Assembly (NCBI GenBank): GCA_019638615.1
Contig: JAHBTL010000009.1
Span: 1 to 64,000 of the forward strand
Origin: Chitinophagaceae bacterium
GTDB taxonomy: Bacteria; Bacteroidota; Bacteroidia; Chitinophagales; Chitinophagaceae
DNA length: 64,000 nt
Reading direction: 5' to 3'
Of the stretch, positions 32,936 to 33,862 are shown in pieces. Under the pieces are notes generated by a model, which was given only the letters and a program-made list of their open reading frames with translations, was not told the origin of the DNA and ran no database searches. How positions within the stretch are numbered: position 1 is the first letter of the stretch; each line of letters opens with the position of its first letter. The translations under genes and the position numbers were made by a program.

Positions 32936-33010
32936 GCGGAAGTAGCTCTCCCGAATGTTCGGGAGGTAGAGTACGATCCGCCGCGGCGGATCGGGGTGGT
33001 TGGTTCGAGT
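32936..33010 (+). pseudogene. tRNA-Gly-like relic with palindromes in place of loops
   Basis: It matches the functional tRNA-Gly at 33067 along the 5' acceptor strand (GCGGAAG), the D-stem, the outer anticodon pairs (CGA..TCG), GGGTGG and the T-loop (GGTTCGAG). The D-loop carries an extra palindrome CTCCCGAATGTTCGGGAG (32948-32965). The whole anticodon arm is replaced by the perfect palindrome GATCCGCCGCGGCGGATC (32975-32992). The 3' T-stem and acceptor strand are lost and AAAAACAAAGTTCTT follows. It has no anticodon loop and cannot be a working tRNA. Confidence 0.8.
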
Positions 33011-33066: not shown

Positions 33067-33139
<73 letters not shown>

Positions 33140-33145
33140 CAGCTA

Positions 33146-33186: not shown

Positions 33187-33221
33187 AGTACTACTATCAA
33201 CTTCTGTTGCGTCGCACACTT
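33187..33221. repeat. Dispersed 35-bp repeat, copy A
   Basis: It begins AGTACTACTATCA and ends GTTGCGTCGCACACTT. A second copy with about 80% identity and one gap lies at 47574-47607 inside the PUL, between GH43 and the lyase gene. Neither is coding. Confidence 0.5.
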
Positions 33222-33254
33222 GTACTGTAGTAATACTATTCAGCAACAATTATT

Positions 33255-33345
33255 GCCCCGGTGGTGGAATTGGCAGACACGCTCCGATAAAAATCGGAGT
33301 GATCCGCGACACCTAACGGGTTCAGCTAAGTTCTTTTAAATTATT
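33255..33345 (+). pseudogene. tRNA-Leu-like relic, tandem copy 1
   Basis: A 91-bp unit. Its first 26 nt equal those of the functional tRNA-Leu at 33437 (acceptor GCCCCGG, D-arm) apart from one base. The anticodon arm is replaced by CTCCGAT-AAAA-ATCGGAG (33282-33299), a 7-bp hairpin with no room for an anticodon. The variable arm differs, the T-loop GGTTCA is kept, and the 3' acceptor strand is missing, giving way to AAGTTCTTTTAAA. It differs from copy 2 at five positions. Confidence 0.8.
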
Positions 33346-33436
33346 GCCCCGGTGGTGGAATTGGTAGACACGCTCCGATAAAAATCGGAGTGACCCGCAA
33401 CACCTAACGGGTTCAACTAAGTTCTTTTAAAATATT
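33346..33436 (+). pseudogene. tRNA-Leu-like relic, tandem copy 2
   Basis: A second 91-bp unit directly abutting copy 1 on one side and the functional tRNA-Leu on the other. Its first 26 nt are identical to the true gene. The same 18-nt hairpin CTCCGATAAAAATCGGAG stands at 33373-33390, and ACCCG/CGGGT can pair where the variable arm would be. The 3' acceptor strand is absent. It is not a functional isoacceptor. Confidence 0.8.
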
Positions 33437-33522
33437 GCCCCGGTGGTGGAATTGGTAGACACGCAGGACTTAAAATCCTGTTCGCAGCAATGCGAGTAAC
33501 GGTTCAACTCCGTTCCGGGGCA
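33437..33522 (+). tRNA. tRNA-Leu (anticodon TAA)
   Basis: This is a complete 86-nt class II tRNA: acceptor GCCCCGG/CCGGGGC with discriminator A, D-arm with GGTAGAC, anticodon arm CAGGA-CTTAAAA-TCCTG, a long variable arm (CGCAGCAATGCG) and T-arm AACGG-TTCAACT-CCGTT. CCA is not encoded. It lies third in a row of three units sharing the same 5' half. Confidence 0.95.
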
Positions 33523-33528
33523 CACACT

Positions 33529-33560
33529 AAGTCAATCGTAAATTGCGATTGACTTTTTTT
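33529..33560 (+). terminator. Terminator after tRNA-Leu
   Basis: A perfect 10-bp stem AAGTCAATCG/CGATTGACTT with a 7-nt loop continues into a T run. It ends 10 nt before the GIY-YIG start codon. Confidence 0.85.
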
Positions 33561-33570
33561 ATTGCTACCT

Positions 33571-33819
33571 ATGTACTATGTATATATCCTCTACTCCTTA
33601 AAATGCAATCGCTATTATGTTGGCTACTGCGCCACTATAGAAGCAAGGCTTCAACGCCATAATACAGGAATGGTGACTGCAACCCGAAATTGCAGACCTT
33701 ATACCCTCTGTGGTTATAAATCTTTTGAAACTGAAACAGAAGCGCGGAAAGAAGAAGCCCGCGTCAAAAAACAAAAAAGCAGGAAATATATTGAATGGTT
33801 GTTGGATGGAAACTGGTAG
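33571..33819 (+). CDS. GIY-YIG nuclease domain protein (UPF0213/YhbQ-like)
   Basis: This 82-residue single-domain protein, counted from ATG at 33571, carries the GIY-YIG core: YYVYILYS and YYVGYC in place of GIY and YIG, the catalytic-type Arg in EARLQRHN, and the Glu of ETEARKEEARVKK. Proteins of this size are widespread in Bacteroidota and their roles are mostly unknown; the fold cleaves DNA. It starts 10 nt behind the tRNA-Leu terminator. Its last codons and 3' flank (33803-33840) resemble the D-arm to anticodon part of tRNA-Leu, including TGGTAGAC and TTAAAAT. A TTG nine bases upstream is a less likely start. Confidence 0.85.
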   Translation: MYYVYILYSLKCNRYYVGYCATIEARLQRHNTGMVTATRNCRPYTLCGYKSFETETEARKEEARVKKQKSRKYIEWLLDGNW

Positions 33820-33862
33820 ACGCGCCACGATTTAAAATGAAAGATAAGTAAAAGCAAGGCAG

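Follow-up and report, generated by a model that had tools for sequence, protein, structure and literature searches.

The two tandem tRNA-Leu-like units that precede the intact tRNA-Leu(UAA) gene in the window (the whole stretch of 64,000 nucleotides analysed here, from a Chitinophagaceae bacterium) are probably relics of a native tRNA gene whose halves were split by a homing-like GIY-YIG cassette that brought a replacement tRNA with it. Such a cassette would consist of a leader, a complete tRNA, a terminator and a single-domain GIY-YIG nuclease gene, and would be flanked by a 5' relic (tRNA position 1 to the T-loop) and a 3' relic (D-loop to the 3' end) of the invaded tRNA, with the intact tRNA-Leu(UAA) of the window read as the replacement tRNA. 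The anatomy of the locus, its recurrence with many tRNAs, the undivided sites in relatives, the allele difference at Leu and the near-exact replacement of the anticodon arm can be read from the sequences themselves, and it is the mobility of the cassette that we infer. The features of the locus are collected in Table 1.

Table 1. Features of the tRNA-Gly and tRNA-Leu locus in the window
Feature	Position	Strand	Remarks
tRNA-Gly(GCC) 5' relic, ends at T-loop	32936..33009	+	palindromes 32949-32964 (D-loop) and 32974-32993 (anticodon arm)
Intact tRNA-Gly(GCC)	33067..33140	+	ARAGORN, Rfam
tRNA-Leu 5' relic, copy 1	33255..33325	+	tRNA positions 1-28, swapped arm, variable-arm type of relatives, ends in T-loop
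Hairpin CTCCGATAAAAATCGGAG replacing anticodon arm, copy 1	33282..33299	+	
tRNA-Leu 5' relic, copy 2	33346..33416	+	
Hairpin CTCCGATAAAAATCGGAG replacing anticodon arm, copy 2	33373..33390	+	
Short leader with AAGTTCTTTTA, repeated after each relic	33417..33436	+	by eye; similar leader before tRNAs in relatives
Intact tRNA-Leu(UAA), variable arm TTCGCAGCAATGCGAGTA	33437..33523	+	ARAGORN, Rfam; allele comparison by eye
Terminator-like hairpin and T-run, between tRNA-Leu and GIY-YIG gene	33529..33562	+	inverted repeat
GIY-YIG nuclease ORF	33571..33819	+	82 aa from ATG; 85 aa from TTG at 33562; TAG stop
Degenerate tRNA-Leu 3' relic	33804..33839	+	D-loop into former swapped arm, overlaps ORF end; by eye

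The Leu units occupy 33255-33345 and 33346-33436, directly before the tRNA gene, measure 91 nt each, and form the array with the best score (399) among the five rows found in the window. They differ from each other at 33274, 33303, 33308, 33325 and 33341, and their first 28 nt match the real tRNA-Leu at 28/28 positions in copy 2 and at 27/28 in copy 1. Both carry an 18-nt perfect hairpin, CTCCGAT-AAAA-ATCGGAG, in place of the 17-nt anticodon arm, with zero differences between the copies in this hairpin, and both end at the T-loop, the 3' T-stem and acceptor strand being absent (judged by eye). The first-pass annotation had described two tandem 91-bp Leu-like units with a swapped arm, no 3' acceptor strand and five differences, none of them in the hairpin, all of which was confirmed; the shared 5' part with one base off in copy 1 also stands, at 27-28 of 28 nt and so slightly longer than the 26 nt given, and recent amplification, which it had suggested, fits tandem copies with 5 differences in 91. 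Its interpretation overall is partly supported, the GIY-YIG gene and the 3' relic having been missed. Within the window, ARAGORN and Rfam (gathering threshold) made no call other than the two intact tRNAs. The variable arm of the window Leu relics is closer to the tRNA-Leu of other species of the genus than to the adjoining tRNA, so that the relics are not plain copies of their present neighbour. The AAGTTCTTTTA motif of the leader is taken by us to be a putative boxA-like element. Just 5' of the Leu relics, the sequence at 33200-33246 (GTTGCGTCGCACACTTGTACTGTAGTAATACTATTCAGC) recurs partially at the loci L002, L003 and L004, with 82-96% identity over 26-45 bases. The Gly relic to which the first-pass annotation had likened the Leu units is real and of the same build, with palindromes in its D-loop and anticodon arm, and a survey of relatives, as then proposed, found Leu relics in G004 and like-built Gly relics 5' of tRNA-Gly in G002, G007, G009 and G010.

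The GIY-YIG ORF starts 47 bp after tRNA-Leu and was matched by Pfam PF01541 (E 4.7e-11), with a domain match over residues 4-76 that fills the 82-85 aa ORF and leaves no room for a further domain. Across 115-116 relatives no variation occurs in the Y, G, R, H, E and K columns, which presumably include the catalytic Arg and Glu of the domain, and the Pfam match together with these columns places the ORF in the GIY-YIG nuclease superfamily. Among solved sequences, the closest are those of UPF0213 proteins (1zg2, 1ywl) and of the structure-specific endonuclease SLX1. Five GIY-YIG proteins of the kind found in the window gave no NCBIfam match above cut-off. The last codons and the TAG stop of the ORF fall inside the 3' tRNA-Leu relic, which is weak in the window (the search of the own genome gives just a 14-nt match to a tRNA-Leu) and clearer at the equivalent place in G004, G007 and G011. 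Between tRNA-Leu and the 3' relic, the GIY-YIG ORF alone has a Pfam match, three overlapping ORFs on the opposite strand having none.

The tRNA-associated GIY-YIG cassette is widespread, and no prior description of it was found among the matches listed in the open-licence literature; in the part of PMC1564403 that was available, 'tRNA' occurs at three places, none of them on gene linkage, and the terms Bacteroid, UPF0213 and YhbQ are absent. In the own genome, 6/7 GIY-YIG matches (4/5 places) follow a tRNA gene, namely after tRNA-Leu, tRNA-Ser(GGA) and tRNA-Asp and as an array after tRNA-Val, and a profile search gave 10 GIY-YIG matches which, among the matches listed, lie at the same five places only. 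Relics of the adjoining tRNA were observed in this genome at the Arg(UCU), Phe, Val, Asp, Pro(CGG), Arg(ACG), Gly and Leu loci, and no GIY-YIG match lies within 1.5 kb of the Arg(UCU), Phe, Pro(CGG) and Arg(ACG) relics. A survey profile made from eight such proteins (A1, cut-off E <= 1e-6) matches 102/147 genomes of the family and 190/296 genomes of the phylum, taken to be Chitinophagaceae and Bacteroidota from the labels of the closest named matches. The 90 family loci that were surveyed are the best 90 among the matches listed (the first 30 and the next 60 clusters), and as they are top-scoring the rates may fall for more distant nucleases. A same-strand tRNA lies alongside in 79 of them, upstream in 71 (mostly ~40 bp off) and downstream only in 8; no adjoining tRNA was found at 11/90, which counts against the cassette reading. 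A 3' relic of the same tRNA follows the ORF in 58 of the 71 loci with an upstream tRNA, a 5' relic is present in 33 and either in 63, and the 8 loci with a downstream tRNA only have a 3' relic in two cases and a 5' relic in all eight. The 3' relic of the adjoining tRNA was thus detected at 60/79 family loci, compared with 33/395 in a mismatched control, in which a tRNA of another amino acid served as the query of the same test. Across the family loci, relics were observed for 17 anticodon kinds and arm replacement for 12, which bears out two earlier proposals, that the units did not arise by simple decay and that the same recipe was applied to different tRNAs.

Beyond the family, 25/26 loci of other families of the phylum have an adjoining tRNA, as do 61/80 loci of named genomes and 47/65 among those labelled Bacteroidota. 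The tRNA-linked loci of named genomes include some from Pontibacter, Echinicola, Algoriphagus, Mucilaginibacter, Barnesiella and Sphingobacterium, and from MAGs of Fidelibacterota, Ignavibacteriota and Magasanikbacteria; for the 65 named Bacteroidota loci, a 3' relic was found under a stricter test in 25 and a hairpin of the class nearby in 57. Several Pro loci (L109, L145, L209) show the order 5' relic, GIY-YIG gene, tRNA, and in L145 the tRNA is followed by a 3' relic; since other Pro loci are in the usual order, the constant feature is the flanking tRNA halves. The same order as in these Pro loci was seen outside Bacteroidota, in a Magasanikbacteria MAG (L342, 1900-2323), where a tRNA-Asp fragment running into GC-rich palindromes is followed by the GIY-YIG gene and an intact tRNA-Asp. 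Tandem arrays of a tRNA part and the nuclease gene were observed at L055, L142, L165, L207 and L247, and in the arrays that were read completely the tRNA part that recurs is a relic. In Chitinophaga sp. E66 (L307, 1255-2300), six ~110-bp tandem units, none with a nuclease gene and each made of a terminator-like sequence, a hairpin and a tRNA-Ala 3' part, stand before the GIY-YIG gene, and a seventh hairpin relic comes after that gene; the nuclease-less units are possible satellites. Contigs often end at tRNA or GIY-YIG loci (C51, C56, C66, C68 and C72 of the own genome, and several family loci), so that draft assemblies may undercount arrays. Two further arrangements were seen: at L096 (1500-1990, G026) a tRNA-Leu(UAA) is apparently interrupted in its anticodon region by what we presume, by eye and from its motifs, to be a putative group I intron, with a 5' tRNA-Leu fragment upstream; and at L046 (1708-2102, contig C14 of the own genome) Pro, Gln, His, Leu and Arg tRNAs form a tight cluster unlike the normal set, perhaps of mobile origin.

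The nucleases are sorted by tRNA. On a quick tree of 116 proteins, tRNA identity requires 38 changes on 104 labelled tips (mean 76.3 and minimum 71 when shuffled), and among the family proteins 29 changes on 79 tips (60.2 and 54 when shuffled); the Val lineage spans families with moderate support. Such sorting is in keeping with each nuclease line having stayed with a single tRNA gene for a long time.

The positions at which the relics break off bear on an alternative that we regard as unlikely, in which a tRNA was duplicated in tandem and decayed neutrally, dispersed GC-rich palindromes, able to settle at any hairpin tip, collected in the unconstrained copies, and the GIY-YIG gene is an unrelated neighbour. 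For tRNAs other than Asp, 23/32 matches of 5' relics end and 26/44 matches of 3' relics start <=2 nt from the anticodon arm (2/79 rows were dropped and Asp was tallied apart), and for Asp the corresponding values are 0/4 and 0/6, because the hairpin sits further 3' in the Asp relics. In most loci, though not in all, the breakpoints thus gather around the anticodon arm and the flanks are intact, and a plain decaying pseudogene, with random loss along the gene, was rejected on this clustering. Many relics keep 100% identical flanks with the arm replaced at near-exact borders, which speaks against decay, as do the parent-like letters retained in the hairpin loops, the excess of same-tRNA relics beside GIY-YIG genes over the mismatched control, and the match of the Leu relics of the own genome and G004 to a variable-arm type other than that of the neighbouring gene. 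In favour of decay are the abundance of the palindromes in the own genome (29 forward matches for TCCCGA and 40 for TCCCGC, with 1 and 0 for the reversed patterns), which also lie inside other repeats, the extra palindromes in the D-loop or T arm of some relics, and the existence of relics without a GIY-YIG gene.

The replacement hairpin is mostly of the form YCCCGA:TCGGGR. The arm survey comprised 89 rows with 77 replacements, 72 of these with a stem of at least 5 bp, and after removal of intact arms, relic parents, inserts outside 16-21 nt and stems <5 bp a set of 53 arm replacements remained, 30 of which begin with TCCCGA and 29 end with TCGGGA. Paired stem variants include TCCCGC:GCGGGA, CCCCGA:TCGGGG, TTCCGC:GCGGAA and TGGCGC:GCGCCA. 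The hairpin loop agrees with the anticodon loop of its parent at 4.40/7 positions, compared with 3.06/7 for other tRNAs (p 2e-4, isotype permutation, n=53). Among 38 distinct hairpins, 98.5% of cells pair, an upper value because these were picked by hand with near-copies and poorly paired rows (e.g. one L176 copy) omitted, and a compensatory change was observed in 45 cells, against 10.0 when shuffled and at most 8 when slid. Hairpins occur at 1.61 per kb around GIY-YIG genes and at 0.127 per kb elsewhere in the same loci (12.7x), being present in 61/90 loci, and in some Asp and Gly loci of other families (L247, L258) the same hairpin sits in the T arm.

Palindromes of this class also occur outside the relics, which speaks against a dedicated role of the hairpin. 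Only 1 of the 29 TCCCGA palindromes in the own genome lies in a known tRNA relic, 13/29 carry TCCCGACTGTGTCGGGA or its complement, and the inspected flanks show a longer dispersed repeat. At L352, L355-L357, L360 and L363-L365, TCCCGA palindromes are embedded in further dispersed repeats, and some of them cap an outer palindrome (for example CCCCTCTC...GAGAGGGG), which would suit a general tendency of palindromes to settle at the tips of hairpins. Because TCCCGA palindromes are dispersed in this way, their capture at hairpin tips stays a rival for the origin of the hairpin. The pattern CTCCGATNNNNATCGGAG has 2 exact copies in the window and 3 matches at <=3 mismatches (shuffle mean 1.07), but 8/100 shuffles reach 3 matches, so only the exact copies are remarkable. 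Across 12 genomes of the genus the exact pattern occurs 8 times, 5 of them in tRNA-Leu relics (2 in G000, the own genome, and 3 in G004), the remaining 3 being one sequence, CTCCGATATGGATCGGAG, in three genomes. Insertion of a dispersed palindrome was rejected as the whole story, CTCCGATNNNNATCGGAG lying mostly in Leu relics within the genus (5/8), and it is kept as a rival for the origin of the hairpin since both TCCCGC and TCCCGA palindromes are dispersed.

The Leu site occupied in G004 and the Asp site occupied in G000 are undivided in relatives (by-eye comparison). In G004, the 3' tRNA-Leu relic is followed by GCTGAATCAATCAGTTAT, and a near-identical sequence follows the undivided tRNA-Leu of G002, G008 and G009, the functional tRNA-Leu of G004 having a different terminator and then the GIY-YIG gene; likewise, the terminator after the Asp 3' relic of the own genome is that found after the intact tRNA-Asp in G005 and G006. 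The undivided sites could instead represent precise deletions through direct repeats rather than states before insertion. The variable arm of the Leu relics in G000 and G004 is of the GTGACCCGCAACGGTCGTA type, as in the functional tRNAs of G002, G005 and G009, and the functional tRNA-Leu of G000, G004, G007 and G011, which have the GIY-YIG gene or a remnant of it, carries the TTCGC...GCGAGTA arm (both by eye). The latter arm was found in 1/7 genomes without the gene (G008), which has the native terminator as well; a cassette that had been removed again through recombination between repeats would be expected to leave this combination. G010 has a functional tRNA-Leu whose anticodon stem is different, preceded by a Leu fragment of the genus type. 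The Leu locus of the genus therefore gives the impression that the relics represent the earlier gene and that the intact tRNA arrived later.

Other allele comparisons count against this reading of the Leu locus. The 3' Leu relic of G007 is a mixture of both variable-arm types, the relic of G003 resembles its own tRNA, the 3' relic and functional tRNA of G014 have an identical variable arm, and many family relics are identical to the adjoining tRNA from the anticodon arm to the 3' end. The allele difference is limited to Leu in this genus, and the presumed target is kept in the functional tRNA, both of which count against the cassette reading. tRNA-Asp is identical in the own genome, G002, G005 and G008, of which G008 has a nuclease remnant only, and no GIY-YIG gene was seen in the 480 bases after tRNA-Asp of G002 and G005. 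Immunity conferred by recoding of the replacement tRNA would suit Leu (variable arm) and the Leu locus of G010, but was rejected on the Asp comparison: tRNA-Asp is identical in genomes that have the gene and in genomes that lack it.

The strong covariation of the hairpins would also be expected if the relics were functional leader RNA of the tRNA operon, acting as an attenuator, a folding insulator or a processing guide, which we consider quite improbable. In a fold test of 34 tRNA cases, the predicted pairing of the real anticodon stem is 0.69 with the swapped arm, 0.70 for the tRNA alone and 0.45 with the native arm restored, in line with this alternative, although the test is partly circular, since identical arms must compete. 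The predicted pairing of the acceptor stem is 0.08 with the relic, 0.10 with the native arm restored and 0.94 alone, which either speaks against insulation or is an artefact of the multiloop model. The 3' relics lie behind terminator-like sequence, and a 5' relic is detectable in only 33/71 loci with an upstream tRNA, which argues against a leader RNA. The picture implied earlier, of tRNA-like transcripts that matter themselves as RNase P substrates or non-decoding tRNAs, is not supported either, given the same 33/71 and the units of the window, in neither of which an acceptor stem is possible. It is very improbable that the hairpin cassettes travelled in folded single-stranded form, as attC and REP sites do, with the hairpin as nuclease substrate and relic plus hairpin as the mobile unit: the closeness in sequence to UPF0213 and the structure-specific SLX1, the six nuclease-less units of Chitinophaga sp. 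E66 and the hairpin density near GIY-YIG genes (1.61 per kb, vs 0.13 further off) agree with it, but the hairpin stem shows no obvious change by GIY-YIG lineage (by eye) and in the own genome the majority of such palindromes are not at the known GIY-YIG places.

Among known systems, the cassette appears to work most like phage SegB, for which PMC13096335 reports that tRNA and nuclease were amplified in tandem, the 5' end of the tRNA and the 3' end of the nuclease sharing microhomology. SegB is a free-standing GIY-YIG homing endonuclease in the tRNA cluster of T-even phages, and both systems combine a GIY-YIG gene beside tRNAs with tandem amplification; tandem amplification of a unit of tRNA and nuclease, as expected of a SegB-type system, was observed here. 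Unlike SegB, the cassette resides in bacterial chromosomes, is found phylum-wide with many tRNA kinds, encodes a single domain of ~80-100 aa, and leaves split tRNA halves with a swapped anticodon stem. An origin from a phage or plasmid was rejected, the window protein having no match in phage or plasmid searches, including tblastn against 50,697 phage records at E 1e-4; a distant kinship with SegB may exist. Of the features expected of homing elements, a site intact in element-free relatives was found for Leu (G004 vs G002/G008/G009) and Asp (G000 vs G005/G006), by eye and with either direction of change possible. The 82-85 aa protein, with its domain at residues 4-76, has no separate region for binding DNA at a long target site. 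The cassette is not classed as a homing endonuclease element, because this region is absent and homing is a prediction from sequence.

Integrative elements that target tRNAs insert at a tRNA gene, and the element restores tRNA function. The cassette would resemble them in its insertion at a tRNA and in the restoration of function by the element, and differs in that no recombinase gene was recognised, a whole tRNA is associated, the spacing in arrays is ~0.3-0.4 kb, and the split lies around the anticodon arm with both halves left. An integrase-type island was rejected, no tyrosine or serine recombinase having been found by Pfam between tRNA-Leu and the 3' relic. Group I introns that lie in the anticodon loop of tRNAs may carry GIY-YIG genes and, like the cassette, interrupt the tRNA at the anticodon region, but the tRNA halves of the cassette are doubled and not spliced together; a group I intron was rejected in the absence of any Rfam intron match in the window at the gathering threshold. 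Short dispersed GC-rich palindromes are shared with REP/RAYT systems, whose palindromes are served by a Y1 transposase and from which the cassette differs in that the loops follow the anticodon loop of the parent and the hairpins are placed within tRNA relics.

Under the reading of a homing-like cassette with a replacement tRNA, the nuclease would cut or nick tRNA genes, or hairpins formed by them, and the cassette would be copied in by repair or recombination, for which the relic halves would serve as homology arms. The tRNA carried in the cassette would keep the cell supplied and so pay for the damage. The swapped arm may guard the relic from recutting, or remove a folding hazard or interference with the real tRNA, and unequal recombination would give rise to tandem relics, the pair in the window being a tandem duplication of the 5' half. 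A wider claim can be put forward tentatively, as a possibility we rate well short of probable, that these cassettes form an undescribed class of minimal mobile elements (~0.3-0.4 kb, with one structure-specific GIY-YIG nuclease) which parasitise tRNA genes in Bacteroidota and neighbouring phyla and swap the host tRNA for their own copy, the hairpin that takes the place of the anticodon stem in the displaced halves being recognised by the nuclease for mobility and self-immunity, with nuclease-less satellites as in Chitinophaga sp. E66. If the cassette reading is right, essential tRNA genes across a phylum would have been repeatedly captured and replaced by a tiny selfish element, which might help explain why some draft contigs end at tRNA genes, why GIY-YIG genes follow tRNAs, and by what route tRNA alleles might pass from one species to another. 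The cassette would also provide a directly testable chromosomal counterpart to phage SegB and a further example of a hairpin evolving under strong pairing constraint.
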